Of a DNA stretch of 64,000 bases, positions 2,713 through 35,122 are shown in pieces. A program made the position numbers and the translations under genes. The notes beneath the pieces were generated by a model. The model was not told where the DNA came from and searched no databases. It saw only the letters and a program-made list of their open reading frames with translations. The stretch is from Ceratodon purpureus. Its lineage: Eukaryota > Streptophyta > Bryopsida > Pseudoditrichales > Ditrichaceae. The DNA lies in contig CM026424.1 in assembly GCA_014871385.1 (NCBI GenBank), positions 14,970,892 to 15,034,891 of the forward strand. The letters are read 5' to 3'. Within the stretch, counting starts at the first letter, position 1. The number at the start of each line of letters is the position of its first letter.

Positions 2713-2732
2713 TGTGAGAGTCCCCGCGAACA

Positions 2733-3659: not shown

Positions 3660-3680
3660 GGGAATAATGGGAGTGAGGGG

Positions 3681-6878: not shown

Positions 6879-6884
6879 GAACCG

Positions 6885-8555: not shown

Positions 8556-8725
8556 GGAAGAGATTGGGAATTCTTCTTCCGATTCCTCGGAAGGCAAGAT
8601 CTGTACGTAAGACTTCCGACTACAGCATACCCACCTAAATGAAGCCTTCACGGTCTGACTCCACTTTTCTTCAAATCTGCGCTCACTTATCTTTCGAGTA
8701 TCCACCTGGTTCACAGCTTATCGAG

Positions 8726-8743
8726 TCCCCGGCAGCGGCGCCA
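8726..8743 (-). other. Primer binding site, tRNA-Asp
   Basis: Minus-strand TGGCGCCGCTGCCGGGGA matches the complement of the 3' end of plant tRNA-Asp(GUC) as I recall it, with one difference (C for T at the ninth base). It lies 10 bases after the 5' LTR end at 8754, the normal place for minus-strand DNA priming, and fixes both the orientation and the LTR boundary. Confidence 0.85.
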
Positions 8744-9687
8744 GATTTTTACGTGTCGGAACACGGAAATGCAACTAACATCCGGATAGCGCTCTAATTG
8801 AGCGTAAACTTCCGTACTGTCACTAGGTTCCGAGTATCGTCCAGGGATTCAATAGTGTTTCACCAAGTAGTTACTTCTAATCGTTCCGAGCCTTGCCACT
8901 GCTCGGATAGTGTCTTCGGAACGTAACTCCCGAACTATCTCCTTCTCTATTCTTCTCTCATTAGGTGTTTCGTCCACAAACCCCAACGTCTCGGATCAGT
9001 TACCGTCTCACAACTGTCCTAGAATACTCTGGCCAGCAGGTCACACAAACGATCCTCTCCGATCCGTGGGACTACAACGACAAACCAATCCGGATCTGGG
9101 AGAACCAGGATCCGATTATCCCTAGGCGACCCGTACCACGTTCCGACTCCCCCTCTCACTGTGCACGGAACCTCTTCAGAAGTTCAGGGAGCCCGACCAA
9201 GTAGTTCTTGATCCGCTTCGACCCTAGCGACGGCTATTCCGTAGGAGGTTGATTTGGGGACGGAACAGTGAGGCTTCACTCCTACGACAATCCGCTAAAT
9301 CTTTCCGCTCAATCCCATTTCCTTTCCGGTTCGGGTCTCGTCGCAACTCCCATCACCTTCCTATCCGAGCTACAGCGGAACTCCCATATCCTTCCCGGAT
9401 CATTCACACTTAGCGGGAAATCACGCACAGTACTTACAAAACACAAATACTTTACTGATAAGGAATATAGGGGGAAAACATGCAAAACGAAGACCCGGAT
9501 CACCTCGCCTGCCTGGTTTAAGTAAGCAGGGTTTTCCACAAAAGCGGCGGCGCCGGTAGTTCAATCAAAACCCTAATCCCTAACTACCTACCTAGAATTC
9601 TACTTTACGATTAGGACGGATCTCCCGATCCGGAATCTACTCCTATAAATCCGGAAAGTTACGACAAGTGGCAGTGAGAGGAATCTA

Positions 9688-11883: not shown

Positions 11884-12034
11884 CTCTACTCCTCACTTCT
11901 CTCCCTCTACGATCCGACAGCAAGAAACCCGGCAATCCAACTGCCGGTGAATCGGAAAAGACAAAGACACCTCACCGCTCTTTCACTCTCTACTCCCAGT
12001 TCGCAAAAAGGAACTCCAAACCCTAACACCCTCG

Positions 12035-12407: not shown

Positions 12408-15400
12408 ACTCCTTAGGAGTAAGAACGTAATTTGCTGCAGGTTTGAGCATTCTGGCTGGATTTTTCGGGTCCCTTACCATCCACAGATGTGGATGTACCC
12501 CCTCCCTTTCCATATCCCTCCTCACCTTCACGCTATCTTTCTCTTTAAATCCACATATAGTCTTTAAAATGTTTTCCGAGAAATTTTTCTCGCAATGCAT
12601 TATGTCCAACGAGTTCCTGATTTCTAAATGCTGCGTTCAAAACCAAAAAAAATTGGTTAAAACTAATGTCTATAATTATAATGTGTCCATTGTATCACTG
12701 GCTCGCTAAGTTTTATACATGACCACGGCTCATTCCAGTTCAGCAGACAACGTTATCAATTCCCACACACTGTTCGGTCGATTTCTAGTGCTAGCCTGAA
12801 GTAGGGTTATTACGTACATAATCGGAGGAGAACTGTCTCAGAAATCACTACTGATTTTTCCTTCTAAACTATTTTTACCCAGGTACAATCGATTGCAGAG
12901 TACGTACCCGAGAACGCATACTATATGATGACTGCACACCGTATTGTGGCACTTATCCGGGACTTCTGTTCTTAAGCGATACGTCTAGTATACATTACGT
13001 GTTACCATGTTCATTTTTAAGATACTACACACCGAGGTTTGATTACTTTAGCGACTTATGTGCTTCAATTAAATGTGACCTCTAATACCAACAGCCACGG
13101 TCCTCCCGTTGAACTGTCTAGTATCATGTTCACGTTAAAAACGAATACTGCGTTGGCAGACATTCACTAGCATATATAGTATTGTTCAGTTTACCGCAAT
13201 TTAACAAGGGCGTTGTAATCTATGGTTTCAATATCTTAGGTATGATTGTTTAAAAAAAAATATACAAGAAATTAATCACAATTACTAACGATAATGCAAT
13301 TGTTAGTACAAACACTCAGAAAGTAAAAGTCTGTTGGATGTGCCATTCACCTCCCAATACGGTAACTCGTAAAAAATACTCCACCTCTTCATGCCATAGA
13401 TCTTCGATGGATCAGTTTCTTTTTCTCTCTTTCTTTTCGATGAGGTACCGTTGGGATGGTTCGGTGCAGCGCTGTCTTGTTGGAATGACGTTGACGCAAA
13501 ACAGGAGCTCCTCCTCTGTGTAGCACCTTCGTTGTCATTAGATCTTTTTCTCTTTCTTTTCGAAGAGCTTCTGCTGGAATTCCCTTTCAAGTCTGTTTGC
13601 TGAGATGCCATGTTACCTTCTTTTCCTGATATGATAAATAGGTACAAGCAGTCAATGTTCCACCAAGTTCCTTCTATATAGCATGTATCCATCAGAAACC
13701 ATATTAACAAAATGGAAGGGGAGTTTCAGAATTACCTTGTCTGGATAAATAAGCACGGTACTTTAGGAATGCCGTTTTCTGCTCGGCAGGAGACTTCGTA
13801 ACAGGACTGCCCCTATTTTCTGACCGGCCCCCGAACACTCTATCGAACTGCGGAGACCTGAGGGTTGATGAAGAGGCAGCCATCTGCGTGAGTCCCGGTA
13901 CATAATTTTGCGAGACTCATACGCGTATGTCCCCCGAAGCTGCTCCCCACATGGAGGACAGGCGGTGTATCCTTGATGAGCAGCTCCTGAAACTGTACCG
14001 TACCCCGGGAAGTCGTGTGTAGAGTATAGAACTGCTGCTCTTAACTTGACAACACGTTCCCCTTCCGGCTTCAAAACGTCATAAGCGGCCACTCCTTTCC
14101 AGAGATCCTTCATCTCCTCTATCAACGGCCTCATCCACACGTCGAAATACTGAAAAGGAACCTGCGACCTTCCTGGAATCAGTAGAGTCAGTAACGTAAA
14201 GAATTTTTTAGTAATCAGCCATGGCGGTAGGTTCAGTAACGTCGCAATGACTGGCCATGCAGACCAACTCGACTTGTGCTGTTTGAAAGGACAAATACCA
14301 TCGCACGATATTTGTAGTCGAACATCCGTGTCCTCAGTCCCAAAACCCATGGTGTCGCACACCTCCGGACTCATGGCATCCATTTTCTTCCATGCGATAG
14401 AATCAGCGGGGTACCTCACTTTACCATCTTTGCTGGCGTTTTCCTTGTGCCAGCGGAGCAGCTTAGACAGAGCAGGAATTCTTAGAAACCTCTGCAACCT
14501 GGGCGTGACGGGAAAAAATCTTAATACCTTGAGAGGCCGTGTTCTATTTACCATGTCGCGATACCTAGGGGAGTCGCAAACTGGGCACCGGTCCAGACCT
14601 TTTGTCTCCTCGTCGTCGAAGAGAACGCAACGAGTAGGGCAGCCTTCGATGTTCTTAAAGTCTAACCCTAGGCGATTGGTGAGAGCCTTTGCCTGGTACA
14701 GAGACCCAGGTAAACAGTTATCAGGAGGCAAGAGACATTTAATCGTTGCAAATATATCATCTGCTGCCTTACTGGTTATTCCCGAGTGTGTGGCCACAAG
14801 ATTCACGACCATCACTGTTGCACCCAATTTCGACGTAGAGGTTCCGTTGTATAGTAACCGCATGGCGTCTTCGAGTGATTTTGCATCTTGCGCCCGCTCA
14901 TTCTCCAAACGCTCTCTACTTCTTTCATCTTGCCAAGAGTCGTCACTGTAGTGAGGGGCGCTACCGGTATGAGCATGTGTAGCACCACATTCGACATCAT
15001 TAGGGAAGGTGGTTCCGTCGTGTGTACCCTGTGCCTCTTCTGTATTCGTTCCAGTGAAGTACTCTGCTCCTTTTGTTGCATGAACATCCTTATCAATGTT
15101 TGGTCTGTCGTCTTCATTGATACCAGTGATGTCATCAGTTGTTTGCAAAGCTGTCATCGCTATCTCGTTGAGTGTGTTCTCCGTAGCTGCTGCTTCCTCC
15201 ACCTGCTGATAGATGTCTTGTAGCATATCTCGCATGTGTAGACCATTATCATGCTCTCGTGGCGCTCTCAGTGCTTCAGCAATCTTCTCCGCAGAATCCC
15301 GCTCCCACTCCTCATCGGAAGAGTCAGGGTCATGTGGCCCTCTCCAAGTTCGGCAGTCGGGTGATCTCCCGAATTTAATTAGGTGTCTCTCAATTTCTGT

Positions 15401-15556
15401 AATGACGATAGCGCGCCCGGTTCCTCTATGGTGAAGACATGGACAGGGAATCTTTGAAAACCCGTACCGCGACGCTCTTTCTTTGTCTCGTAACCAAAGC
15501 TTGTTATCTCTATCTCTAACCCTTCGCGGGTCAGATAGAGGTAACTTCTCAGACAT
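12408..15556 (-). pseudogene. CACTA transposase, tnp2 type, broken by LTR insertion and a frameshift
   Basis: Would cut and join CACTA ends. The first coding exon starts at ATG 15556 (directly after a possible acceptor) and runs to ~13736. It shows an N-terminal C-x-C/H domain, RCPVCDSPRY, LRFFPVTPRLQRF, a RYPADSIAWKKMDA block and TLLIPGRSQVP, all tnp2 landmarks. Near 13875 the frame shifts by one base, since the other frame continues through QFDRVFGGRSE to a good donor. A second exon (~13634-13345) has a Ser/Lys-rich linker and RWSIFYELPYW. A third (~12613-12408) has LDIMHCEKNFSENIL and runs straight into the Ty3 LTR, so the last residues before the stop are LTR-derived. The rest of the gene lies left of the retrotransposon, outside the window. 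Confidence 0.85.
12614..13344 (-). other. Intron of the CACTA tnp2 gene
   Basis: About 730 bases of AT-rich sequence between the ELPYW exon and the LDIMHCEKN exon. No coding potential was seen on either strand. The exact donor is unclear because the best phase-consistent GT lies inside the ELPYW block. Confidence 0.5.
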
Positions 15557-16839
15557 ACTGCAGAAGAAAAACATTCATGTATTAGTAAACTGTACTTTTA
15601 GTGCTTCGGTCTGTCTTTAACGTTCGACAATAACCTTGACACTATTAAAACATAGATTACTCTCCCCCAAAAAATCTATGTCATTCAGAGGAACGGGTTT
15701 GAAATCATGAAATTCTTATGCTTTGATCTCGACTAGTCATAGCGTATCTGAAACATGACATAAAAATTGACACGTATTCAGAAAGGATTTTATAACATTT
15801 ATAAGAAGGTCCTAGAGCAACACTTCACCTGGAAGCACAAGTCTCATTCACATCTCCGTTCTTCTGCGGATGACTTCAAATAAATTCAGAATCGGTGGTT
15901 GTATCCTTCTTATCTTGAATCCAGTTCTGTAACTGAAACTGACCTCTCCTGTTGCACTATGACTTCTGTGGCAAGTTTTCGAAGGAGGATGGTGCACACA
16001 GTCAGCTAGTGTACATTCAAACAGTACAAACACTATGTTAAAACGTATCTTTACTTCGATAAGGGCAATAGAACAGCACTTACGGATGCCTACGCTAATT
16101 TTAGGTTAACGACCATGCCACTGACCACAAACAGTCGTGAACCCTAATCACACCACCATCAAACATAAACTCAAACAAGCAATTACAGTATTAAATTACA
16201 AAGCAGAGTGCAGTTCAACAGTGGCGTCTGAATTCGAAAACAACCTCTTTGTCAATTCACTTCACAAAATTCATGAGTTCACAAAACTTCAATCAACTAT
16301 TCCATAGAGCAGGTGAGAGATGGTACCTTTCCTCACATCCTGAAGTTCCCATGTGACTCCGCACCCTGTTTCCAGGTCCAGACTGGCGGCATTCACGATT
16401 GTGGGGTGTCAATCGTAATATAATAAGAGCTTACCACATACAAGAAATGGTTAGGCGAGTACAGTCAGATGGAAGATTGACGGCTTGATCTACAATGCGA
16501 GAGGAACAAGAAGGTGAAGACGGAGATACCGCAAATGGATATACAGCTGTTCTATGCGTCTGATAACTGGATGTGTTGAGTCTGTAAATCATAAAAGTTT
16601 CTAAATCCACTGCCAATTAACTTGCAGTTGTCACAGTCTTGAGGAGGGTTAACGTACCTTAGGTCGAAGAGTATGCGGAAACGATGAGAGTCCACTCTTG
16701 TAATCTTCTTCGCGACGACGTCGTTCCTTTGCTGCGCACAATTTACTTCCTACGCTGATAGTCGCTTTGAATTCTTCTACCTACAGCAAAGCACTCTTCG
16801 TTTCCTGCATCTTTGGGAGAGAAAGTGAACGTTGTAGGC
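15557..16839. promoter_or_regulatory. Divergent promoter region between the two CACTA genes
   Basis: About 1.3 kb separating the minus-strand tnp2 start and the plus-strand TnpA-type start. No convincing frames are seen. It may hold leader exons, because the tnp2 ATG sits next to a possible splice acceptor (pyrimidine-rich, then CAG) at 15558-15560. No motif beyond that could be assigned. Confidence 0.4.
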
Positions 16840-18834: not shown

Positions 18835-18846
18835 TCGTGTAATAGG
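18835..18846. repeat. Left target-site duplication of the MULE
   Basis: TCGTGTAATAGG, repeated exactly at 35111-35122. Twelve bases match; MULE duplications are usually 8-11 bases, so one or more end bases may match by chance. Confidence 0.85.
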
Positions 18847-19040
18847 GGGGAAAGTTAGCATGTGAGCGGAGAGCGGAGAGCGGAGAGCAGAGAGCAGAGA
18901 ATGGAGAGCAGAGATTTGACATTTAGCCAAATTTTTTAAAGCAAAGTAAACCCTATAACCGTGGAAAAAAACTAAAAAAAGGTATGGTTTTTTTACTTTT
19001 TTTAGTAAAGGAGCGTATTCCCGTGGAATTCAGGGATATG
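18847..19040. repeat. Left terminal inverted repeat of the MULE
   Basis: Starts GGGGAAAGTTAGCATGTGAG, then about seven AGAGC(G/A)G heptamers. Further in, CCGTGGAAT and TCAGGGATATG (~19020-19043) recur inverted near 34880-34915. Similarity to the right end is imperfect and interrupted. Confidence 0.75.
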
Positions 19041-19224
19041 TCTGGTAAAAATTTTCTTACGTTTTATTTTTTCGGTACAAATTAGGGCTGATGTCATGAT
19101 GACGTCATCCATTCAATCCTTTAGATTTGGTCCCTTATTGGATCTAGATAGAAGTATTCCAGCATCATGTTCTTAGATCAGAACATTAAATATTGAATAG
19201 AAAAGTAAAGGAAAAAAAAAATCA

Positions 19225-19302
19225 CAAAAGCTAAAGTTTATGGTCTGAAACCTTAAACTTTATGGTCTGAAAGCTAAAGTTTATGGTCTGGAACACTAAA
19301 TT
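19225..19302. repeat. Short tandem repeats, TTTATGGTCTGAAA-type
   Basis: Three diverged copies of about 23 bases built on CTAAAGTTTATGGTCTGAAA, in the subterminal, gene-free 19.04-19.5 kb part of the MULE. Possibly protein-binding subterminal repeats. Confidence 0.5.
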
Positions 19303-19518
19303 TTGAGCATTTATTTTATAACATTTCACTCTTCGTGTTATATTTTGAGCTTCACAGTTGGCGTTTCATCCTTTACATAACCCGAGACGAATTGGAAATG
19401 AGAAACATAACTACTTTAAGATGTTTGGAGTAGAGTAGACGAAGGAATAGGCAATGAACTCCAATTCAATCAAATCAAATCAAATGCAAACAATGAAAGA
19501 CCGAAGCCTCGTTCAAAC

Positions 19519-22500
19519 TCACAATATGCTAGAATCACTACTTCCACCCTCAGAACTAGATGACTCGGAATCTCCTTCTACCGCCTCGTCATCGACGAAT
19601 ATCAGAGCCCTAGGATCAAAAGTAGTTGGCCGACTAGGAACATATGTGAGGGCTCCAGATTGAAACGCCTGTGCTAAGTCCTCCGCGTACTCCGGAAGTA
19701 CAAAAGGCTGTATCGGGCTGGAATGAAGACGCCACGATGGAGTGGACACTGATGTTGGCCCACGTGGCGGTGTTGCCGAAACTACTCTGCAATAGAAAAC
19801 CGATTGTGGTTAGATTGAATACGTAGAGGTGCAAAGAGAAGAAATGCTTGGAGAATTTGAACAAAGAATAGAAGACTTACACCACTTATCAGGTCTTCTT
19901 GCTCTCTTTGGAGGCGCTTCGTCTGCTGCTGCCGGCCTAGGATGTTTAGGAGGGCCCATGGCAGATGACGTAGCCATATACGGTTTGAGAAGGGCGTTGA
20001 AGATGGCTTCGTCCTCCTCACAAGCTATAATATGACGACCAATACTCTGGCAAGCCTTGAGGGAGGCACCTGAAAACACGTAGCATAGATAAGTAGTGAG
20101 TTCCTGTGGAGAAAATCAGAGGATTGGAAATGCAGAAACTGTTATTGGAGGATTACCTGTTCCCGCCGACCACTCGAAGACTATGTCACCGGGCTTGGTC
20201 ATCTCCTCAATGATGCCCTGCATCATCTCAGGGGCTTTCTCCCTCGGGCCTCTCCACGGCACCTCTCCATTCATGAGCTGCGTGTTTAGCTGGGTGAAGT
20301 TAAGAATGGCATCACTCTCGGTAACGTGGAGGTCGTTGTGAACGACATCGGATTTCTTCGTTTGAAATGAAAACTTGGATGGGGGGGTACCACCACGAAT
20401 GAAGACGCGCACCCAGAATCGAAGAGACTGCGAGAAACAACAATGTGTAAGTGCAATTAAGAAGATAACTTAGTAGAATTCAAAGACAAGCAAAGATTAT
20501 GATGTACATACCAAGGAGCCGGGCATCGTTGGGTGAGCCAAGCCTAGTCCATTGAAGCCCCACCAGTCTCGGTGCTGCACGAAGCCATCCTCAGCAGCAA
20601 CTTCGGAAATCTTCGAAGCGAGACGTTGGTCGTTGTTGTGGATGATGCAGAGAGCACCATCAAACTGCAAGAAATGTCTTGCGAATTCGAAGAGGTCATC
20701 CAAATAATCCTTGCCGCGTTTGTTCCAAGGCGGAGGGACGTAGGCGGGATTGGATATGGTGGGGACCGGAAGATTCTCAGGAATGTCGGCAATGATCAAG
20801 TCGAATCCCAAGTGATTCTCCAGTTGGCATCTCTCAGGAACTCGGCTGTCGCGGCCTCCTCCAAACTTGAATAAAGAAGAAATCAGAGTTAGAAAATATA
20901 AGGATTACAGAATATCAGAATTCAAGGGAAAGAATGAAATAACGAATCATACCATTCGAATGATGTCTAGAGCCTTGTTCCATTCGGGATCGCCACCAAC
21001 GTCTTCAAGTTCCTTGTGTCGGGATAGAACCAAAGGCACAGAGGAGTTGATGACATAAACCTGAGAGGAATTGAGAGTTCCAGCCGAAGAGGTACTCTGT
21101 GGGAATGTCTTGGCTTTTCTCTGCTCGAGGAGACTTCTGGTGACCTCGGAAGCACTGATCGAGGAAGGAGCCGGCGAAGAAGCTGGAGTAGGCTTCGTAA
21201 CGACAATACCTGGAGAGGGCTCTGGTTCATTCTGTTTTGGCTGGGAAGACGCCGCACCGGTTTGCTGTGATGCCTCCGACTTAGAACGAAGAGATTTCAG
21301 TCGCCTCCCTCTTCCTTTCTTTGGTGGAGGAGCGGAAGATTGATCCTCCTGTCCTTCGTCTTCGTCTGCACCATCGAAGGAGGCTTCCACCACCACCTCA
21401 CCGGCATCGTGTAGCATCTTGACGTCCGCCTCCGAGTCAATAGTGAAACCACCAATACAATCAAGATACCAGCATCCAGCATCCAGGTGAGCAGCTTTGT
21501 ACCTTTTTATCTGCTGGGGGGAGTACATACATTGGTCCGATGTTGTCTGCGTCCAAAGCTTGAAGTACTTGGGGAGCTGCTGAACGCTGATGGCCCCCTT
21601 CAAAATAAGCTCTCGCTTGAAGTACCTAAGGGAAGACATATAGAAGGTAAGTATTTGCAATGAAAATTATGAAATGGAAATGCGATTAAGTTACTTCACG
21701 TACCGGTAAGTAACCCGCTTCACAACTTCAGCGGTTCCAGGGAATTTTGCGAAGTCGGACTTCTTGTCGAAGTGGTTAACAGCCTTTTTTCCAATGAACG
21801 TAGGGAAGGCCTTGTCCCACAAGAGAATACGTGAACTCTCGACAAAATCGCCCGGCTGTTGGACATCAGGAAATGCCATCCAATTGATGTCGAGGTTCTC
21901 CCTTTTGATTATGTCCTCGACTTCGTAAATGACGGCTTCCTCCAACTGTAATACAAAAATCATATAAGTTGCAACCAAGAAGGTATACGGTAAAAAAACA
22001 AGGGAATAATGAATCGGAAAGGATTTCGTATGGAACTTACCCCAGCCCAGAATGAGGCTTTGTTCAACCATGGGTCCAGTTCGGTGTCTTTGAATTCAGA
22101 TGGCAGAAATCTGTAAGACGTTCGAGCACTCGGGGATGAGTTCCACCACTTCAACCAACGAGCCTTGTATTTGGCCTCAACGGCCGCTGGAACAAACCTC
22201 TGAAGCTTTTCGAGCGACATCTCAGGCTTATTATTGAGACTGTAATGGCGATTGATCTGCAAGAAGCACCGAAGATTTTAAAAGGATTAATACAGAAATT
22301 ATTGAAGTCGAACGAAACAGTGAATCGAACAATGTCCAGTGAGTCACCTCATTGAGGAAGTCGTCACCATTCTTGGGATTTGCGATAGCCAAGTACTTGG
22401 TAAAGTCCTTCTTCTTGATGGCTTCGACCATTCTATCCATTGCCTCATTCATGACATCCCAAACTGCACTTGCAGACTGCTCATTCTCGGGTGTCTTCTT

Positions 22501-23497
22501 GCGGTAGGTAGTGGCTGCTTCATCGGAGGCCGCAGCGAGTTCCCGCTATAGAAAGAGAAGTAAGCATTAGGAAATTCCATGGGTATTGAAAAATAAGAAG
22601 CAAATAGAGAGAGGAGGTAGGACTTACTCGGTACAGAAATGCGATGAAAACTTTAGTTGTTAAGGGAAACCAGGAGGGATTAGGTGGCTTGTTCTTCAGA
22701 CATGCGTCATACTCCTGAGGACTGAGGAGGTCTTTAAATTCCTCCAGCTTCATCATTCCGAAAGAGCGGATTCGAAATAGTTTGGCGGGGAGATTACTCT
22801 TCACGTAGTCATTCTCAGTCGACCTGAAAATAAACCACATTACGTATGATGAATAATGGAGATGAGATAAAGTAACAAATGGAATAAGAGGAACAAATGG
22901 AACAAGTACTTACCAGTTGATGTCATGCATTGCGTGAAGAAGATTGCCCACATGGCCACGGGGGTCGAGGACTATGCAGTGCACAGATATGTGCCATGAC
23001 GGGTCGTCTGCATGATGCTTGTTGATATGACGAAGCCATGCTGAGAGGCGATGGTTACCTTCCCAGACAAAAAACATCTTCCCCGAGAATCGCGACCACT
23101 CCTCGTCACTTTGAAGCTCAGATTCAAAGGCATCATTCGCGTCCCTCCATAATGGGCTCCATCTAGCGATGACATCATCCGTAACATCTCTTGTCTGCTC
23201 TTCGTTGTTGTACATGGAGATGTACATGACGCGGTCGCCATCTCTATACCCCTTCACGAACTCCCGCTCCAAATGCTGTACCCCCACTTCGCCAACTGGT
23301 CTAACCTTTGCCATTGGGATCATCCTGCACAGGGGAACTGTCATTCGGGACTTCTGCGATGGCCTGATCCTGAGCTTGTTGATGACGGCGTTGGAGTCAA
23401 TCTTGTATTGGGATTGATGTTCCAATTCCCCTTCCGTAGCAGTCTTCAAGTTTATCGGACAAGATGGTTTCACCAACACATCTTGTGTTTGCGTAAC
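19519..23497 (-). CDS. ParB/Srx-like domain plus N4/N6-type DNA methyltransferase-like protein, MULE cargo
   Basis: Ten exons join in phase without a stop: 23497-22914, 22823-22628, 22545-22348, 22256-22041, 21945-21704, 21625-20953, 20865-20512, 20427-20157, 20069-19881, 19784-19519; about 1062 codons plus an unresolved N-terminus. The first exon has a ParB/sulfiredoxin-like fold signature (VRPVGEVGVQHLEREF ... VWEGNHRLSAWLRHI). The middle ~550 residues are unknown, with a KKGRGRR basic patch. The C-terminal third matches the pfam01555-type order: FDLIIADIP (motif IV place), then KAPEMMQGIIEEMTKPGDIV and EWSAGTGASLKACQSIGR (motif I, SAM site), IACEED. The expected DPPY is DIPE, so catalysis is doubtful. 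The tail is Asp/Glu/Ser-rich. This domain pairing is known from bacterial and phage genes. I infer capture by the MULE. Confidence 0.8.
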
Positions 23498-23642
23498 CTG
23501 CGAGGGGGTGCGCAAATTAGGAAAACAAGCACAATCGAAGAAAGTCAAGCAAAGTAGACAAGTATGTAAAAGAAAGTAACAATATATCTTCATACTGTCA
23601 TCTCTCTTTTAACAACTCAATCAACAATCGTGATTGATAAAA

Positions 23643-24289
23643 CTATCTACGTGAGGATCGACTATAGTACTCCTTAGACTGTCTACAGTTCCAGTGACGG
23701 CGCCTCCTCCAAAATCGCCTGGTCTGTTGGACAGGGCACGGCAGAATTGCCGGCAGAGCAAAGACGACATGGGCTGGCCTCCTGACTCTAATCGGCGACG
23801 AAGGAGAGGGTGGAGACATCGGCGGAGAGCCCTGTGGAGGAGACGTGGGCATATAGCCCGGGGAAGTTGGCTCATACACCGGGGATGTAGGCATGTACAC
23901 TGGAGAGGTAGGCATGTACACTGGAGAGGTAGGCATGTACTGAGGAGAGTGGACCTCGAGAGGTCCACTTTCCACACCAACAGGGTTGGCTACATCACAG
24001 GTACAGTAGTACTGATCAAATGAATCCGATAGATCGGAAACATTGATCACAGAAATGGGAGAAGTAGCAGACATCTCAGGAGCATCAGAAGATACCTAGA
24101 GTAGAGGAAATGAAGTAAGGATTAACTTCCATATTTAAAAGAGAAGAAAACAAAGATGGGTATAAGCCGAATAGAACTCAAATTCATAAACATAAGAAAG
24201 CAATATAAATTGAGAATTGAATAAAATACCTCAGTTTCTGCAGGCGTCGGGTCTTGACGTTCACTTCCCAGATGATCTCCGTCAGAGTC
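23643..24289 (-). CDS. Upstream exons with RNA polymerase II CTD-like heptads (probable N-terminus of the ParB/methyltransferase gene)
   Basis: Exon 24289-24230 (GDHLGSERQDPTPAETE) has clean acceptor and donor and joins in phase to 24095-23643. The latter contains ATG 24074 and five consecutive heptads at 23939-23835: YMPTSPV three times, YEPTSPG and YMPTSPP. These resemble the YSPTSPS repeats of the largest Pol II subunit. A Pro/Ser run and an Arg-rich end follow, then a stop at 23643. I found no good donor in phase with the next exon at 23497, so the link to the methyltransferase gene is inferred from strand, proximity and spacing. It might instead be a separate protein of about 143 aa (from ATG 24074). 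Confidence 0.6.
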
Positions 24290-24439
24290 CTTAATCACAA
24301 ACAATGTTATAAGTATTTGAAATACAACAACTACGAAGTAACAAACCACATCCGCGACATGGCTCCCAAGAAGACCCTAATAACTCATCAATACTTATTG
24401 AAATCATCATCATTTATCGTGAGCGAGTCCATTTTAATG

Positions 24440-27110
24440 AACCAAATAATTCTAAGAAAAAAAAAAAAAAACAAAAATTCAAAAATCCCCAAAAGGACCC
24501 CCACCCTCGCGGCCTACTGTCGTCAACGACACTAGGTTTGCGGGTTTTAATTTTTTTGAATTTAAAAAAAAAAAACATTAAAAAAACGTTAACCATCCAA
24601 ACCGAACTGAAATCATGGTAATTTCAAATAAGCAATATCCATTTTAATGAATCAAATAATTCAAAAAAAATAAACAAAAAAACAAAAATTAACAAATCCC
24701 CAAATGGACCCCCACCCTCGCGGCCTACTGTCGTCAACGACAGTAGGTTTGCGGGGTTTAATTTTTTGGAATTTTTAAAAAAAAAACATTATAAAAACGT
24801 TAACCATCGAGACCGAACTGAAATCATGGTAATTTCAAATAAGCAATATCCATTTTAATGAATCAAATAATTCAAAAAAAATAAACAAAAAAACAAAAAT
24901 TAACAAATCCCCAAATGGACCCCCACCCTCGCGGCCTACTGTTGTCAACGACAGTAGGTTTGCGGGGTTTAATTTTTTGGAATTTTTAAAAAAAAAACAT
25001 TATAAAAACGTTAACCATCGAGACCGAACTGAAATCATGGTAATTTCAAATAAGCAATATCCATTTTAATGAATCAAATAATTCAAAAAAAATAAAATAA
25101 AAAACAAAACTTAACAAATCCCCAAATGGACCCCCACCCTCGCGGCCTACTGTCGTCAACGACAGTAGGTTTGCGGGGTTTTAATTTTTTGAAATTTTAA
25201 AAAAATAACATTATAAAAACGTTAACCATCGAGACCGAACTGAAATCATGGTAATTTCAAATAAGCAATATCCATTTTAATGAATCAAATAATTCAAAAA
25301 AAATAAAATAAAAAACAAAACTTAACAAATCCCCAAATGGACCCCCACCCTCGCGGCCTACTGTCGTCAACGACAGTAGGTTTGCGGGGTTTTAATTTTT
25401 TGAAATTTTAAAAAAAAAACATTATAAAAACGTTAACCATCGAGACCGAACTGAAATCATGGTAATTTCAAATAAGCAATATCCATTTTAATGAATCAAA
25501 TAATTCAAAAAAAAATAAAATAAAAAACAAAACTTAACAAATCCCCAAATGGACCCCCACCCTCGCGGCCTACTGTCGTCAACGACAGTAGGTTTGCGGG
25601 GTTTTAATTTTTTGAAATTTTAAAAAAAAAACATTATAAAAACGTTAACCATCGAGACCGAACTGAAATCATGGTAATTTCAAATAAGCAATATCCATTT
25701 TAATGAATCAAATAATTCAAAAAAAAATAAAATAAAAAACAAAACTTAACAAATCCCCAAATGGACCCCCACCCTCGCGGCCTACTGTCGTCAACGACAG
25801 TAGGTTTGCGGGGTTTTAATTTTTTGAAATTTTAAAAAAAAAACATTATAAAAACGTTAACCATCGAGACCGAACTGAAATCATGGTAATTTCAAATAAG
25901 CAATATCCATTTTAATGAATCAAATAATTCAAAAAAAATAAAAAAAAAAACAAAAATTAACAAATCCCCAAATGGACCCCCACCCTGGCGGCCTACTGTC
26001 GTCAACGACAGTAGGTTTGCGGGGTTTAATTTTTTGGAATTTTTAACAAAAAAACATTATAAAAACGTGAACCATCGAAACCGAATTGAAATTATCATCA
26101 TTTCAAAGAGCAAAATCCATTTTAATGAACAAAAAAGCTCAAATTAAAGAAAAAAGGAACAAAATCTTCAAAATCCCCAAATGGACCCCTACCCTCCCGG
26201 CCTACTGTCGTTGACGACAGTAGGTTTGCGGGTTTTAATTTTTTGGAATTTTTAAAAAAAAAACATTATAAAAACGTTAACCATCGAAACCAAACTGAAA
26301 TCATGGTAATTTCAAATAAGCAATATCCATTTTAATGAATCAAATAAGTCAAAGAAAATAAAATAAAAAACAAAAATTAACAAATCCCCAAATGGACCCC
26401 CACCCTCGCGGCCTACTGTCGTCAACGACAGTAGGTTTGCGGGGTTTAATTTTTTTGAATTTTTAACAAAAAAACATTATAAAAACGTTAACCATCGAAA
26501 CCGAATTGAAATTATCATCATTTCAAAGAGCAAAATCCATTTTAATGAATCAAATAATTCAAAAAAAATAAAAATAAAAACAAAAATAAACAAATCCCCA
26601 AATGGACCCCCACCCTCGCGGCCTACTGTCGTCAACGACAGTAGGTTTGCGGGGTTTAATTTTTTGGAATTTTAAAAAAAAAAACATTATAAAAACGTTA
26701 ACCATCGAAACCGAACTGAAATCATGGTAATTTCAAATAAGCAATATCCATTTTAATGAATCAAATAATTCAAAAAAAATAAAAAAAAAAACAAAAATCA
26801 ACAAATCCCCAAATGGACCCCCACCCTCGCGGCCTACTGTCGTCAACGACAGTAGGTTTGCGGGGCATTTTTTTTTTTAATTTATAAAAAAACCCATTAA
26901 AAAGCATACACCAATTAAAAAGCATTCACATTTAAATCAATAATTACTGAGGAAAACCACGTTAAATTATCATGAAAAATCATAGAAAAGAAAAAATAAA
27001 AGACATATTGCAAAAATCCCCAAACTCCCCCCCACCCTCGCGGCCTACTGTCGTTGACGACAGTAGGTTTGCGGGGAATATGTTTTTAAAATTTATAAAA
27101 TTAATAACAT
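24440..27110. repeat. Tandem array: about 13 units of ~210 bp, each with a 24-bp palindrome
   Basis: The palindrome CCTACTGTCGT-CA-ACGACAGTAGG recurs near 24512 (one mismatch), 24724, 24933 (one mismatch), 25145, 25357, 25569, 25781, 25992, 26200, 26412, 26622, 26832 and 27041, spacing 208-213 bases. The two-base centre is CA in eleven copies and TG at 26200 and 27041. It sits in a GC-rich island (CCCCCACCCTCGCGG ... TTTGCGGGG) inside otherwise A/T-rich spacer with A-tracts. The outermost units are diverged and the central ones nearly identical, as expected from unequal exchange. No frames or spacers of CRISPR type are present. Confidence 0.95.
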
Positions 27111-27861
27111 TAAAATACGTATACCATTCCAATTTCAGATTTCAAGGAACTAATTGCCTTCACTTTTTTATTATACTTTTCACACAATTAGCAAATTTAA
27201 CCTAAAGAATTAATGTTGGTGATTACAAGCTCAAAGCAGCAGAACAACACACACTCAAATTCAAATCCGGAATGTCGAAAACACTCAATGTCGAGACAGA
27301 TCTTAGATTCGGAATAAACATATGTCAAAAAATACCATTAAAATACGTATACTATTTCAAAAAAATTCAGATTTTCATTAAGGCTTTGTGAGCATAATCG
27401 CATCCAATTAACACAAAAATTTAAAGAAGAAACACACATGAAAACTCTGCAAACTCATTGCCATGCCCAGATTGACCAACACTCACAGCTCGTAACGAGC
27501 AATGCGATCCATCTAACCAGCTGCAGCGCAAGAATCTGCAAGACCCAAAATCCGCCCACTCCAAAACTCGAAAACAGATCACAAATACTGAAGATGAACA
27601 AACACTAGGCAAGATATCAATAAGAACCCCAAAACGAAGCTTCGGCCCTCGGGAGGCCACTCACTGCGGATGGACAGTCCCAAGCCGCGAGGCACCGAGA
27701 ACAAACCAAATGAGATAAACCAGCACTCATCAAAAAAGAAATGAGAGGGAACCCTTGAAGCAAGCCCCCGGCCTCGCACTCCCTCCCTAACCTTCTCTCA
27801 GACCCGCCCCTTCGAAAACCCATCATTCCAGTTTCAAACCCCAGTCCAAAATTCAAACCCA
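27111..27861. other. Gene-free stretch of the MULE
   Basis: AT-rich, then mixed composition. Short frames on the minus strand at 27421-27862 overlap one another in different frames and show no domain, so none is called. Confidence 0.5.
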
Positions 27862-28016
27862 TGTACCAGATTCAAACCCCCGTACGACCTTGACACTCAT
27901 TACCCCGTACGAACTTAACAAATTCAAACCCCCGTACGACAATCACACATTCAAGCCTCCGTACGACCTTAACATTCATTACCCCGTACGCCCTCAACAC
28001 ATTCAAACTCAACAAG
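27862..28016. repeat. Iterated CGTACG palindrome block
   Basis: Five CGTACG hexamers at 27881, 27906, 27933, 27960 and 27985, spaced 25-27 bases, embedded in repeats of the form TTCAAACCCCCGTACGACCT. It lies just past the 3' end of the minus-strand charged gene and next to the big array. Confidence 0.8.
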
Positions 28017-29091
28017 GACAAATATGCGAGCGTGCATTTAGTCCGTGGCAGCTTCGTACCTCCTCCAAGTCCGTTGCAGGTTCGACCTGGTCATCTTCTT
28101 CCTCCTCGTCCTCGACCGGGACCTGCTCCTCGCCTCCACTCCTCTGCTCGTCTTCGCTCTGAGGCAAATCCCTCTGCACGACCACTCCCCCTCCCCGTCG
28201 ACCTTCGAACCCCAGGTTCTCGACGTCCATCCCTGCTCCTCTTCCAGCTGCAGCCTCAGCAGCGTCCTCGCCTTGATCCGCTGGTACCCGCCCTGCCCTC
28301 GCCCCTTCCCTCCCCGCCATAGCTCGGCCTCCTTCCCCTGCTTGAAGGATTCCCTCCCTAGCTCTCCTCGACTCCACCCGCAAGTGCTCCAGAACGTTAT
28401 CCTCCCCAACACAAAGGTATCCAGCCGATCCTCTCCCCTCCTTACTTCTTTCCTCGCTTTTTGAATACTACATTTAAATAGTATGAATCAGAACCAATGC
28501 AGCATTTTGACTTGAAGCTTAGCCTTCAACTTATTCATATTACAATTACAATATTCTAATATAATATCTTATATCTAACTCGAATACAACAAAGAGTCAT
28601 AAAAATCACATCAGTCATGTTCAAAATCGTTTAGATATACTTACCTCGTTGGAATTAAAATACTGATCATATTGAGAATCCGCCCCCCTTGTCGAAGAGT
28701 CATTAAACATGATTGATGGCTGCGGTGACTCTTCTCTTTGACTACAATTAAACTCTAATTCATCCGTCATCTCGTCTCGTTCAACCCTACTTGATACTTT
28801 TTCTTGATCGTGCTCCTGATTCTCGTTGACGGTGTCCTCTAAAATCTCCTCCTTTACCTCCACTATAGAGTCTAGGATGAGTTTACGAATGCTACAAAAC
28901 TTTAAGGCTACAGGCACACCCGCTCCTCTCCTCTTCAATGGTGCACTGAAGCGATCATCCTTCAAATCTACCTTCTTTCGTGATGCTCTCCTCTTCCTCG
29001 CTCTCCTATTCGTAAAATCAGTCTTACATGGTTTTCTTCTCGGTTTAGGAGTGACATGAGTGGAGGGAGTAGACCCTCCACTATCCTTCAT
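28009..29091 (-). CDS. Charged protein of unknown function, MULE cargo, two or more exons
   Basis: Exon 1 runs from ATG 29091 to 28645 and ends at a strong GTAAGT donor. It is rich in Lys/Arg (KPRRKPCK, RRARKRRASRKK) and then in Glu/Asp (VEVKEEILEDTVNENQEH). A probable second exon starts near 28401 in phase and codes for an Arg/Ala/Gly-rich then very acidic segment (EDEEEEDDQVEP), with a possible GT donor near 28060. If no further exon follows, the frame ends at 28009. No known domain is seen. The composition suits a nuclear, nucleic-acid or chromatin-contacting factor, but that is only inference. The second exon's acceptor is weak. Confidence 0.5.
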
Positions 29092-29220
29092 GTGTCTAAG
29101 TAAGCTAATGACCCTCCTCACAATAAAGGACACTATAGAACTTCAGCTCTGCTTATATACTGATCAATCCTAGCTACTGCTGAACAACCCCTCCTATCAT
29201 AATAATAATGATCACTGACA

Positions 29221-29675
29221 TGCATTAGGAGCAGTTTGGGGTCTCCAACGGGCCTTTTCCATGCTTTCCGTGCCAAAGTTTTGGGCATGCCCGTGCACTT
29301 TACCTGCTGGCACCAACTGTGCCAGCAGGTCGCCAAATGCTGCCAGCAGTGACAGCAGTTGGCATTTGGGGGGTCCAGCCAATCGCTTCCCTTCCCCACC
29401 CCACCCCACCCCACCCCCCCATTGGACAATATAAGCAGTAATGACACTGTCACCGACCGTGTGCCCACTGCTATCACCCCATTGGACAGTACCGGATCCT
29501 GTTGTCAGCGGATCCTCCTGTCAGCGAATCCTGCTGTCAGCGAGGCGAATTTTGTTGTCAGCGGGCAGGATATCGACCAATGAGATTTCGAAGAGAAGTG
29601 TCAGCGGGCAGGAAGCTCACCTAATCCGGGCTGTCTTACAAGGCCCGTTGGAGACCTGATTTTTCCCCTAATGTA
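29221..29675. repeat. Foldback, MITE-like insertion inside the MULE
   Basis: A perfect 17-base inverted repeat, GGTCTCCAACGGGCCTT at 29240-29256 and its complement at 29640-29656, extends outward to TGCATTAGG / CCTAATGTA. The interior has further short inverted GCCAGCAG motifs, a C-rich CCCCACC run and repeated CTGTCAGCG words. It has no frame with support. No clear target duplication was found. Confidence 0.6.
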
Positions 29676-30141
29676 CCTCTAAAAAAGGTCTCTGACATTG
29701 TACAACTAAAGATAAATGAATTTTGAATTAAAGTACATGTGCGAATAAATATAATTAAAATTTATCGAAAATTCAATAAAATCTTCACTTAAATAGAATT
29801 GATGACAAAGGGTCACCCATCACTGAGGCCTGGCCATGAGTCCTAGAACGAAAGACGGCTAGAGCTAATCCTAGATATGCTGTCTTCCACAAAAAATTAA
29901 GCCACGATCTAAAGTGCTACTGACATGAGTTAATATAAGTGTACTTAAATTCTCATTACGGCGCCAGGGTTAACTAACTTTGTCACTTATATTCTAACTA
30001 ACTTCCGTTACTCGTGATTCAGATTTATTACCTAAGGTACAACTAGATCTGTATATAATCATTGTACTCGAAGTCATCAGTCTCTCATTCTTCTGCACCT
30101 TCAGTCGTTTAGTGTCTTATCCCCACACTCTACGTTTCACA
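29676..30141 (+). promoter_or_regulatory. Upstream region of the MULE transposase gene
   Basis: About 470 AT-rich bases before the transposase ATG. TATATAAT at 30051-30058 is a plausible TATA-like box, ~85 bases upstream of the start codon. A pyrimidine-rich leader follows. No other element was recognised. Confidence 0.4.
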
Positions 30142-33100
30142 ATGGCGTACGTGGCTCCGCGAGAAGTCCAAGGCACAGTCGTCCTGTATGCTCACGGCCT
30201 CGGAGTCCCTCTCTCTTTTCAGACCAGTGCCGATGGTATGGCTAGCGTGTCCTCCCAACACCTAAGTATGAGATTCACTTTTAGAGAGGATACAATCAGG
30301 GTCGAGGAGGAGATTTTTGACGAGATAACAACTGAAGTCACTCACACTCTAGGTCAGTTGTCAGAGAGGGGTGAAGATGGAATTCTGTATTGGCACTTGT
30401 ATCCTGGAACATATAGAGTTTATGGACTTACAGAGTCGCAGATGCAGACGTCTACTGAGATTCTGACTTCCCGCCGCTCCTCTACTTGCACTGTTGAAAC
30501 TCCGCTTCCTCGTCACGTGAAGGTCAAGGTAGAGTCTGGCGTGGATGCTACTCTTCATACTCCGGTCATCTCCCTCTCTTCAGATGAAGAAACTAGTCCT
30601 CCTATTTCGTCCCCTCTTGTCACAGAGGACGCTGCAGAGTCTAGGCCCCCAGTCCCCCCTCCAGAAAAGTGCTCCACTTCCTCTCAAATTTCAGGTTATA
30701 GTACTATCAGTATTGTCGATTCACTTCGCAAACTTGCCGAGAGACCTGGTAGTAAGAACGTTCTGAAGAAACTGAACTACTCTAGAATGCGTCACGAGAG
30801 AGTAGGGTACCTGCCTGCCGTTTTTGATGGACCAGTTCTATTCGAATTACCCCCTGCGGCATTAGGAGCATCGCGGTCGCAGGCAAAGTCCATGCAGGGA
30901 ATGGACAAACGATACGACGGCCACTTCTGGACCAAGACCATCACCACCAACATCACCAACGACTTAGGGCTGTCTTTCCGGTCCTCCACCTGTGTCGGAT
31001 GGCTGCGCTGCATCAACAAAGACTGCCCATTCCTGGAACGCCGCCCCCGGATTCGTGATGTGAACGAGACTGACTTCGACGGCTGCACACTTCAAGCCTT
31101 CAGTGTCAACCTGTCACCACCAAAAGATTCCACGGTTGTATGCAAGGTATGCAAAGAACCCCCCGCCTGCATTGCTACCTGTGGGGCCCGTATTTTTTAC
31201 GTGTCTGGTACAGTCAACCAAACGAGGGCGTGTATCCATCTTGGAACTCACGATCACCCTGTTAAGGTTGGCGACTACAGAGATTCAAAGGATGAGATCA
31301 ATAGTTTGATCTCAGAACAGGTCGAGAATACACCTGGAGCAACAAAGAGCTCTGTGGTGCTGGAGGCGAGCAAGGTTCTTATCGGGAATTACTTGCTACA
31401 GCCAGAGGACGCACCTCCCAAGAAACTCACCATGGAAGAGCTTATTCCAGTCCTTGACAGGTGCAAGGACATGGCATCTCCGAACATTCGCAACAAGGTA
31501 ATGTCATTCCGTCAGTTGAGAAATTATGGAGTTATGGATGCCATAACAAAGCTGCGTGGACTCAGTCTCTGGGCATATGTCCAAGAGAACAAATTCCCTG
31601 GCCAAGGAAAAGATCTGGACAAGGTCTTCCTCTTCAAGATGTCGGAAGTGGGTCCCGGAAGCGGTGTCGACCTCGTGTCCAGGATGCAGCCCGGCGGTGA
31701 TCTCGAGAATGCCTGGGTGATGTTTGACCACGTCAAGCGGGTACGCGATTGGACCACGTTGGCATGCCACGTGTACGACTCCACGTACTGCCGGGTCATG
31801 ACGATTGCTACCTGTGACATGATGTCCGAGGACTGCGATGCCCAGATCCTGTTTTGGAGAAACCTAAATGCTGTCATGGAGAGGAATGGCGTTGCAGCGC
31901 CAAACTTCAAGGGCTTCATGGCGGACAGCGCACAGGCCAACTGGAATGCAGTACGGATCGTGTACGGGACAGGGAACAAGGAAGACCGCATGGAGGATCG
32001 GGAGAGGACCTGCCTATTTCATTGGACGCAGTCCATGGTCAATAATACTGAGAAGTACATCCCTGAAGAACTGTGGGAGCAACACAAGAAAATGTGCCAG
32101 CAATACCGGGCAGCGAAAACAATGGAGGAGGCGGATACTCTCTACCTCGCAATCAAAGGTTGGTGGGTTTCTACTGGAGCTGTCTCAGAGAAGGCCCTAG
32201 CTAGATTGGACCTCTGGCTTTGTTTCTGGCACTTCCGATTTCGCCAATGGGGCGGCTTCATGACTGAGGTACCTTTTTTTTCCTTACTCGTTCACTCCGT
32301 TTTCTACTTCGCAGTTACCCCACCGCACTGAATGCCGAACCACATCTAACCAGTACTACCCTTGAATGTACAGAAATTTACTGAGGATGAACTTGCAGAA
32401 ATGCCTACGTGTAACCTTGCTGAAACTGTTCACAGCAAATGGCTTCAGTCCTCTGGTAACAAGTGCGCCGACCTCTACGTGGCTACAGTTGATGACTACG
32501 TTCGGGCATTTCTTCAAGTTGTCAACTTCTACCAGTTTCTGAAAGGGGAAGTTGGAGGGACGGGTCCATCCAAGAAGGAACTGAAGCTACGAGCGGCAGA
32601 GCGCAGAGCGAAGTTCACAGGGAGACCGCATGTGCTTAAAGACCCCATGTTAGAGATGCCTGGAGCAGAGGAGTTCTGCACACGTCTGCCACGCCTAGCT
32701 GGAGAGGAAGTGTTCGGATCCATGAAGCGGAAGCCCGACCTACCCCTTGGAGCTGAGGAAGAATCTCACCGTCCGGACAAGGTAAACTACTCCCATCCAA
32801 AAGCACCTGGTCGTAATGTCAGGGCTCGCATCTCCCAGATGCCCATCATTGTCGAGGATGACACCGAAGATGACACGCAGGTCGACGAAGGCCAGTCTCC
32901 TACAGAGGTTGCCGTGACAATTCCAGAGACCCCACGAAACGAGATCGGGATCCGCCAGGTGAATGCAGTTCAGGAGTCCAAGGTTGACGTCAAGGAATGG
33001 CACATTGCAAGATTGTTGAAGACTTCTGCAAAGTGCTGCTGGGCCCAGAGAGCTGTCACTAAGAAGAAATGTACGGAGAGAATTGTGAGGAACGTGAACG

Positions 33101-33867
33101 CTACTGCTGCACCTACCTACACAGGAGTTTGGACCAACATCCGCCGGAATACTTCGGAGAGGACGGAATTCTTCTTCTGTTCTGACGACATCGAAAGGTG
33201 CGTGAAGGGCTCAAGGCGCAAGTGGGTTGCTAAGTACTCTGCAACCCAGGAGATGCCTCCAATTCCAGCCGTCTGGCCTGTCAAGCTCGGGACAAACCTG
33301 AACATCACAGAAATTCGTGCACTAGAGGCGGCTGGATTCCAGCTCCCGGAGAAGAAGCCGGTCTCCCCACGTCGCCTCTTCTCCTCCGCTCCGCCACCTG
33401 CAAATCTAAGTTCCTTGCCAGTTCCTACAGATGCTGACCGCTACCCAGGCAAGAGAGACGGGAAGATGGTGAAGCGCACTGCCACTCGCCCTAATCCGCC
33501 GCAGCGACTCTCCATGGGCTCCTCCGACACCCTGAGAGCTCGCCTCCGTTCTATCACCATGATACCTCATCCTGGCCATGGTTGCATCATAGGGTTGGAT
33601 TCCGGCATTCCACCTAATGTCTCTCACTACCAGATCACCATCAGCTCCAACCCTGGTTGCAGTTGCCCAGCATTTCGGAAGACCATGACTAAGTTTCGTG
33701 GGCGGGTCCAATTCTCCTACTGTAAGCACGTTTATTTCATCCTATTGAAGGTTTGCAACCGCGATCCCGACGATGACCTTTTCATCCACGCGCCTACCTA
33801 TAGCTTCAACGAGGTCAAGATACTTCTCGAAAGCGGAATTCTGACACACCCTTCAGCAAGAAACTAG
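30142..33867 (+). CDS. Mutator-like (MULE) transposase, two exons, 1206 aa
   Basis: Catalyses excision and insertion of the element. Exons 30142-32268 and 32374-33867 join in phase across a 105-base GT-AG intron (GAG|GTACCT ... TACAG|AAA). The N-terminus (~1-170) is novel and Ser/Thr/Pro-rich. A zinc-finger region with C-x-x-C pairs ending in HLGTHDH (~270-385) recalls the FLYWCH/WRKY-type fingers of MULEs. The RNase H-like DDE core has WVMFDHVKR, GFMADSAQANW and the CLFHW pair. The C-terminus has a SWIM finger with C-x-C (PGCSCPAF) and CKH about 25 residues later. No stop or frameshift is visible, so the protein may be active. The first in-frame ATG is at 30142; the frame is open ten codons further upstream without another ATG. 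Confidence 0.88.
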
Positions 33868-34168
33868 GGGGCAGGCTACTTTTAGTCCATGTTCTTTCAC
33901 GTGGACGGTGGCAACTAGGTTGCAAAGTAATTGCTATTTGAATTATTCTCTGTATCGAATTAGCAAAACATATTTGTATTGTTTTTTTTAATATATAGAG
34001 TCCCACTATTCACATTGATTGACACGCCTAGTAATTGGTCCAACTAATAATGCAATGCATGTCACATTACTATATTCGACCACTTGTACCCTTCACCCCG
34101 TTAAGCACGGAAATATTATAGTAAATCATCACTTTAATTCAACCAAGAAACTGCTGCAAATAGCTATT

Positions 34169-34612
34169 TCATTCCCTGTACTTAATGCGTTTAGTTTTGC
34201 CCTTTGCATGCTCAGCATATCTACCAATATCAGACTCTTGTACTTGAGAAACTACATTCTTGTCCATTTTGGGCACTCCCAAACCTAGGTAGGGACGTTT
34301 CAATAATGGACCACTCCCACTTGACCCTTTAACTGCGTCCCTCGAATAAGTCCCGGGTGGGATCTTCCCAACCTTAGAGTATGCATGAGCTGGCAGCGGC
34401 TTCTCCACCTCGTCCTCAACAACTATGATCTCCCTAGGATCTCGTAACACTGAAGGGTCTGTTCCCAACTCCACTCCAACATCCACGACTTCCGGAAGTG
34501 TAAGTGCTTCGCCACATCCAAATAGCTCGTCTTCCCCCTCAACCTCCACGTAAGGTTGAAACGGGCACACAACATCACCAAGGGAAACAGAAACCACCTC
34601 GATGTCCTCCAT
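34169..34612 (-). CDS. Small acidic protein of unknown function, 147 aa, MULE cargo
   Basis: Uninterrupted frame from ATG 34612 (MEDIEVVSVSLGDVV) to a stop at 34169, lying between the transposase gene (convergent) and the right TIR. The N-terminal half is acidic (EVEGEDELF, VVEDEVEKP); the C-terminal half is basic with KGKTKRIKYRE at the end. No domain is recognised. Its place just inside the element end and its codon-like composition argue for a real gene that could use the TIR as promoter. An alternative is a chance frame, since the length is modest. Confidence 0.5.
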   Translation of the reverse strand: MEDIEVVSVSLGDVVCPFQPYVEVEGEDELFGCGEALTLPEVVDVGVELGTDPSVLRDPREIIVVEDEVEKPLPAHAYSKVGKIPPGTYSRDAVKGSSGSGPLLKRPYLGLGVPKMDKNVVSQVQESDIGRYAEHAKGKTKRIKYRE

Positions 34613-34879: not shown

Positions 34880-35110
34880 TATTTCCCTGAATATTTGAAA
34901 AAATTCCACGGTCATAGGTCTTAAATTCAGCTTTTAATAGGTAACAGTCGGGGAATATTCTCATAATATTCCAGTTTTCTAATTTTAGTGTCTAATTTTA
35001 GTAAATAAAGTACTGTTTTTAGATTTCAGACTTCATTTTCTGCTCTCCGCTCTCCAAATCTCCGCTCTCTGCTCTCCGCTCTCCGCTCTCCGCTCGCATA
35101 CAAGTCTCCC
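34880..35110. repeat. Right terminal inverted repeat of the MULE
   Basis: Read on the minus strand it starts GGGAGACTTGTATGCGAGCG and continues with AGAGCGG/AGAGCAG heptamers, interrupted near 35050 by a GATTTGG step. Further in lies a CCGTGGAAT ... TCAGGGAAATAT segment matching the left end. The 34613-34880 stretch before it is AT-rich without genes. Confidence 0.75.
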
Positions 35111-35122
35111 TCGTGTAATAGG
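35111..35122. repeat. Right target-site duplication of the MULE
   Basis: TCGTGTAATAGG, identical to 18835-18846. It includes the splice acceptor (TAATAG|G) of the next CACTA exon. Confidence 0.85.

Follow-up and report, generated by a model that had tools for sequence, protein, structure and literature searches.

A Mutator-like element of the moss Ceratodon purpureus carries a predicted ParB/sulfiredoxin-methyltransferase gene and an array of palindromes

What is a gene that joins a ParB/sulfiredoxin-like domain to a DNA methyltransferase (MTase) fold doing inside a plant transposon? The question is raised by a stretch of 64,000 nucleotides from Ceratodon purpureus (assembly GCA_014871385.1, contig CM026424.1, positions 14,970,892 to 15,034,891; the window hereafter), in which a Mutator-like element (MULE) carries such a ParB-MTase gene beside a tandem array of palindromes. 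The gene is an integral accessory gene of the MULE family and is under purifying selection. We propose, with a probability of about one half, that its product is an accessory protein that binds DNA and S-adenosylmethionine (SAM) and works on the DNA of the element itself, most likely in anti-silencing of the VANC kind or in autoregulation.

One MULE spans positions 18847-35112 of the window and holds the transposase as well, whereas a sequence-only reading had drawn the boundaries at 19519-23497; the MULE boundaries that it claimed are real, being marked by terminal inverted repeats (TIRs) and a target-site duplication (TSD), and the element is wider. The inverted arms of 41 nt at 18860-18900 and 35059-35099 are 95% complementary, and GTGTAATAG is found at 18837 and 35113 and nowhere else in the window, whichever strand is read; the next base, G, agrees on both sides, giving a TSD of 9-10 bp. 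TIRs together with a TSD of 9-11 bp, by which a MULE is recognised, are present here as GTGTAATAG[G]. TSDs flank three of the four copies followed end to end (ACGTGCTCTT, GTTGGCTGAT and CCGAGAATAC); in the fourth, L030, the left TIR was not recognised. Since two copies besides that of the window have perfect 10-bp TSDs and are 97-99% alike in the ParB-MTase gene and transposase, the family has been mobile recently. The two transposase exons join into a stop-free frame of 1206 amino acids with an IS256/MULE-type DDE transposase fold, and a SWIM-like zinc finger after the catalytic core scores 15.3 bits, under the cut-off of 19.6. Compared with Pfam, 63 members of the transposase family matched 21 families, among which the Pfam MULE transposase model was absent and Transposase_mut appeared in 2 of the 63 (best E 0.034). 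The element is Mutator-like and autonomous-looking. A further transposase relative (L001, 42%) lies on a 4.1-kb contig binned as cyanobacterium, probably eukaryotic contamination, perhaps from moss.

The ParB-MTase gene is predicted to have ten exons (19519-23497, minus strand) with GT-AG introns throughout; at the last junction two AG acceptors adjoin, of which the second is needed. The exons join to 1062 codons without an internal stop, so the ten-exon gene with conserved phase that had been claimed holds. VWEGNHR falls at residue 144 and EWSAGTG at residue 906 of the spliced prediction. By its structure model, exon 1 belongs to the ParB/sulfiredoxin superfamily: the prediction, which covers this exon, shows the alpha+beta fold common to the superfamily, KorB and ParB rows are among its fold matches, and at least 90% of 65 sequences share R150 of the GNHR motif. 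Profile searches gave no ParB match, neither for the spliced protein in Pfam, PHROGs and NCBIfam at E<=10, nor for the 65 exon 1 family members against Pfam at E<=1, nor among PDB sequences searched with the ParB exon profile at E<=10. An exon-wise search found 64 ParB exon homologues among 96 candidates (weakest 7e-20), and a search with the full-length protein, in which 7993 candidates were scored, gave nothing at E<=1, presumably a consequence of the database consisting of unspliced open reading frames. Viral and prokaryote collections gave no match to the spliced protein, nor any relative among 66 and 231 pattern stretches.

The MTase part was found by profile. PF01555 scores 27.4 bits on the spliced protein against a cut-off of 26.7; the match, to positions 163-218 of the 221 in the profile, falls in exons 8-9 in the neighbourhood of motif I. 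PHROG DNA methyltransferases reach 3.7e-11 on the same exons, and DpnA is the best PDB sequence match (1e-4). The fusion gene that had been claimed for this MULE, and for which a profile check had been suggested, is thus borne out, the MTase part by profiles and the ParB part by fold. The unspliced MTase exons of L053 and L054, two loci of other subfamilies, gave no Pfam or PHROG MTase match. Once exons 8 and 9 were joined, with one or two junction residues filled in, MTase matches appeared in L053, L055 and L042, PF01555 scoring 35.6 bits in L042 and, just under the cut-off, 25.6 in L053 and 26.1 in L055. The profile match and SAM-binding motif I are those of an N6/N4 DNA methyltransferase in beta-class order; L053, L054 and L055 read DLTAGT at motif I, and the acidic pair of motif II is retained in the window and all 20 chosen copies (E in 21/21, then E or D in 21/21).

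The catalytic motif is another matter. In an alignment with five phage enzymes, DPPY (DIPY in Lrm1) stands opposite DIPE of the window protein, which has ADIPE in place of the (D/N/S)PP(Y/F/W) of N6/N4 DNA methyltransferases. Across the window and the 20 copies, D is kept in 21/21 and the third-place P in 20/21, and the fourth position, with E in 19 and K in 2, has no aromatic residue in any of them; L053, L054 and L055 read AQVPD, AEFPD and ADFPD. Because the aromatic residue of DPPY is absent from all 24 of these sequences, we do not class the protein as an active methyltransferase. To judge from the alignments, the protein has retained the MTase fold and the greater part of the SAM site but not the canonical DPPY tetrad; the earlier description as DNA-modifying is doubtful. 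An active N4-cytosine (N4C) or N6-adenine methyltransferase that works with a non-canonical catalytic motif and modifies the element's own DNA is clearly unlikely. The fold and the largely kept SAM motifs fit such an enzyme, the phage Lrm1 enzyme shares the DIP form, but as DIPY, and bdelloid rotifers use a bacterial-type N4C mark, according to the accessible text of PMC8885841; the missing aromatic and the first acid of motif IV, which reads D, Q, E and D in the window, L053, L054 and L055, speak against it.

Copies in the genome (362.5 Mb) show how the gene is maintained. The places considered are the best 150 of 1611 candidates for MTase exon 7 and the best 150 of 1815 for a transposase piece. 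All 150 scored exon 7 places match at 63-100% identity, 113 of them stop-free; MTase exons are present in 20/20 chosen copies and the ParB exon in 17/20. An ordinary host gene was ruled out, these 150 places being copies of one repeat family, and wherever checked the homologues were transposon copies, as the sequence-only reading supposed. Among the matches listed, 34 of 150 transposase places have a listed exon 7 no more than 25 kb away and divergently arranged, as expected, 29/37 at a transposase identity of at least 95% and 5/15 at 88-94%. In addition, a transposase and a ParB exon match (P0050 and P0148) have the same longest contig, of 674632 bases, the sole such coincidence in the two lists, which suggests that both genes share one contig in another source.

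We also inspected the 4-14 kb upstream of one transposase each from the 84%, 80% and 75% identity groups. All three subfamilies sampled have a diverged ParB-MTase gene whose exons match at 21-57%, for the most part 30-42% (37-42% for exon 1), and the suggestion that the gene arrived recently does not stand. L053, of the 80% group, has its ParB and its MTase exons on different strands (plus at 0.5-2.4 kb, minus at 9.2-10.0 kb), and exons 6-8 form a single open frame of 447 amino acids; it may be a rearranged copy or a split gene. The median ratio of nonsynonymous to synonymous distance (dN/dS), over pairs with dS of 0.05-0.8 that share branches and come from a set leaning to intact copies, is 0.21 for exon 1 (69 pairs), 0.22 for exons 2-5 (162), 0.40 for exon 6 (164), 0.41 for exons 7-9 (196) and 0.34 for exon 10 (160). 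Every median is well below 1, and the inferred selection on the gene is confirmed. MULEs often carry host fragments, and the gene could be one that was passively captured in Pack-MULE style; its presence in the three other subfamilies sampled, the purifying selection on it, and the lack of a low-copy version among the matches listed (best 150 of 1611), make this highly improbable, and recent capture as Pack-MULE cargo was ruled out by the presence across subfamilies and dN/dS. Elements seem to exchange parts: in L029, for instance, synonymous distances from the window are 1.42 for exon 1 and 0.10 for exons 7-9, a wide spread within a single copy. As a side observation, a contig of 110,524,308 bases (C6), probably a sex chromosome, accounts for 96 of the 150 listed MTase exon places; the sex chromosomes of this moss measure 110.5 and 112.2 Mb in the available part of PMC9273592.

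What the protein may act on was found next to the gene. Beyond what had been noticed before, the element holds an array of palindromes and a second, small accessory gene, in whose predicted first intron (24290-28644) the array lies. The palindrome has an 11+2+11 layout, and its 13 copies, in the array and just past its end, include two with one arm mismatch; the final unit has decayed, with 77 of 197 flanking positions off consensus, yet both its palindrome arms are perfect. It occurs at 1802 sites genome-wide, the reversed, uncomplemented control at none. The core common to the window and the 75% group, TACTGYCGTYAACGRCAGTA, has 1479 forward and 1685 reverse matches, again with none for the control. 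L030 has a different, 202-bp unit that retains CCTACTGTC-6-GACAGTAGG, and L054, of the 75% group, one with GGTACTGCCGTCAACGGCAGTACC, whose inner 20 bases are those of the window except for two changes that pair across the dyad; the core is kept in both arrays although their units are otherwise hardly alignable with that of the window. The palindromes of seven units other than that of L042 were reached by 0/400 mononucleotide shuffles. The array is only 72-77% alike between elements that are 97-99% alike in transposase and ParB-MTase gene, and the first exon of the small gene is 80-88% alike between them. A DNA-binding protein encoded by the element most likely reads the palindrome.

The first two exons of the small gene join in phase to its own last exon, giving 319 amino acids, and also, stop-free, to ParB exon 1; shared 5' exons with alternative splicing and two products are possible. 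Its heptads YMPTSPV (23875-23940), which recur in other copies in varying number, resemble the C-terminal domain of RNA polymerase II, whose heptad we take to be YSPTSPS. The position of the palindromic sites between divergent transcription units, along with the KorB and ParB rows among the fold matches, would suit a transcriptional autoregulator of the KorB/ParB kind, for which the palindromes would serve as operators of the divergent genes; a dozen operators are many for simple repression, and we consider this quite improbable.

The mechanism that we prefer is the following. The ParB/sulfiredoxin domain and the beta-class-type MTase fold would bind DNA and SAM, probably without methylating. 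The protein would most likely be brought to the palindromes of the adjacent intron, either on its own or in concert with the small basic protein of the second accessory gene, and there, by analogy with VANC, it would shield the element from silencing or set its expression. A rather unlikely version is a system like ParB/parS, in which a ParB-fold protein with a SAM-sensing pseudo-methyltransferase loads at the arrays, spreads or clamps and insulates the copy from silencing, protein and palindrome changing together between subfamilies. Somewhat unlikely, too, is a transposition cofactor with no role in silencing, whose ParB/sulfiredoxin part would be a nickase or NTPase that cuts, pairs or targets element DNA, with the array as an internal assembly site. 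This stays alive because ParB domains elsewhere act as DNases or NTPases and one, that of the bacterial ParB-methylase Bce_0392, is a nonspecific nickase (PMC5512222, in the part accessible), and the ParB-MTase gene and transposase remain together; however, we infer that a transposase of IS256-type fold may do without a partner, and the array, itself within a predicted intron, is separated by roughly 3 kb or more from the transposase gene and from both TIRs.

Several observations count against the VANC-like account. On the protein side, Foldseek E-values for the ParB part are weak (best 0.05); MTase profile matches are confined to the C-terminal third, so motif IV is placed by the alignment; the second G of AGT in motif I is retained in only 15/21 sequences; and a missing DPPY is no proof of inactivity. 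As for the linkage of the genes, 0/98 transposase places below 88% pair with a listed exon 7 among the matches listed, which means little because both lists are the best 150; four further close pairs have other arrangements, and the exons of L053 are on both strands. On the DNA side, the palindromes of L042 and L053 are unlike that of the window, and 2/400 mononucleotide shuffles matched that of L042. The ParB-MTase protein, the small basic protein or the transposase could each be the reader, and the array and the first exon of the small gene would change together either by exchange or by co-evolution.

Table 1. Positions of the element's features and of neighbouring genes in the window.
Feature	Position	Strand	Remark
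Left TSD, GTGTAATAGG	18837..18846	.	9-10 bp; register taken from copies
Left TIR (GGGGAAAGTTAGCATGTGAGCGGAGAGCGG...)	18847..18914	+	
ParB-MTase exon 10	19519..19784	-	acidic C-terminus, stop
ParB-MTase exon 9	19881..20069	-	MTase past motif I, includes motif II (ASLKACQSIGRHIIACEED)
ParB-MTase exon 8	20157..20427	-	MTase, SAM-binding motif I (DIVFEWSAGT)
ParB-MTase exon 7	20512..20865	-	MTase, position of catalytic motif IV
Motif IV position	20761..20790	-	ADIPENLPVP in place of DPPY/DPPW/NPPY; alignment
ParB-MTase exon 6	20953..21625	-	linker, low complexity
ParB-MTase exon 5	21704..21945	-	
ParB-MTase exon 4	22041..22256	-	
ParB-MTase exon 3	22348..22545	-	
ParB-MTase exon 2	22628..22823	-	
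ParB-MTase exon 1	22914..23497	-	ParB/sulfiredoxin-fold domain, model residues about 49-194
GNHR motif in exon 1	23048..23059	-	near-invariant Arg
Small gene, last exon	23643..24095	-	heptads YMPTSPV, Arg-rich tail; alike in copies up to frame end
Small gene, middle exon	24230..24289	-	in phase with own last exon and with ParB exon 1
Tandem array	24428..26892	.	211-bp unit, 11.7 copies
24-bp palindrome	24513..27067	.	CCTACTGTCGT-CA/TG-ACGACAGTAGG, 13 copies
Small gene, first exon	28645..29091	-	basic, resembles a nuclear localisation signal
Transposase exon 1	30142..32268	+	N-terminal beta-grasp, GCM-type zinc region, IS256/MULE-type RNase H fold
Transposase exon 2	32374..33867	+	SWIM-like zinc finger
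Small conserved open reading frame	34169..34612	-	MEDIEVV...; adjoins right end
Right TIR	35042..35112	-	
Right TSD	35113..35122	.	sequence match to left TSD
Retrotransposon-like polyprotein frames	482-11892		2733-8717; Ty3 type by eye
CACTA-type Transposase_21 gene	13763-15574	-	162.8 bits
DDE_Tnp_4 transposase	51248-52042	-	60.1 bits
Glyoxal oxidase-like gene	57904-59280	-	323.9 bits

Outside the MULE, the window holds the neighbours at the foot of Table 1. DDE_Tnp_4 is presumably of PIF/Harbinger type, and the same 216-residue frame at 482 and 10193 marks a stretch duplicated about 9.7 kb apart.

The ParB/sulfiredoxin domain joined to an N4/N6-type MTase fold, both of bacterial type, adds to the DNA-handling or epigenetic proteins that eukaryotic transposons keep for long periods, and it poses a sharp question: active methyltransferase or SAM-sensing pseudoenzyme? 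With many copies, and several subfamilies that differ in accessory protein and palindrome array, the family offers a test bed. If the array is the protein's target, the moss would provide an independent parallel to VANDAL anti-silencing.

Among known systems, ISCth4, which we take to belong to the IS256 family, is prokaryotic, unlike the moss element, and we know of no ParB-MTase partner for it. In the phage vB_Kpn_F14 a ParB/sulfiredoxin gene adjoins an adenine-type MTase gene, and in ParB-methylases of the Bce_0392 type the two are fused (accessible text of PMC5512222); unlike these, the moss gene lacks DPPY, has introns and lies inside a eukaryotic DNA transposon. Our literature search, for the library and terms used, found no ParB-MTase fusion in transposons. 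Eukaryotic retrotransposons that carry a DNA methyltransferase (DNMT) are alike in their cargo, but theirs are C5 DNMTs (PMC5890265, available part), where the moss MULE has an N4/N6-type fold joined to ParB. Fungal DNA transposons with TET/JBP, and HarbingerS and MuDR elements of Phytophthora with SET, likewise carry epigenetic-modification genes, though a dioxygenase or histone methyltransferase and not ParB/sulfiredoxin with a DNA-MTase fold; MuDR/MULE is not among the TET carriers in the accessible part of that survey (PMC12730594). The closest parallel in manner of working is with VANDAL elements of Arabidopsis, MULEs with an accessory gene, VANC, that varies more than the transposase. 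As far as the accessible text of PMC5735166 goes, VANC21 motifs lie in tandem repeats, also inside VANC21 and VANB21 introns, and these motif-bearing repeats of introns and non-coding parts vary between related elements. The moss element is alike in these respects, its accessory protein also being more variable than its transposase. The parts differ, since VANC has DUF1985/DUF287 and YAGTATTAY-type motifs and the moss element ParB/sulfiredoxin plus MTase and a 24-bp dyad (PMC5735166). The moss protein, set beside VANC by description, would be like it only in how it works, a parallel that had been drawn from VANDAL before and is strengthened because the palindrome array has now been found.
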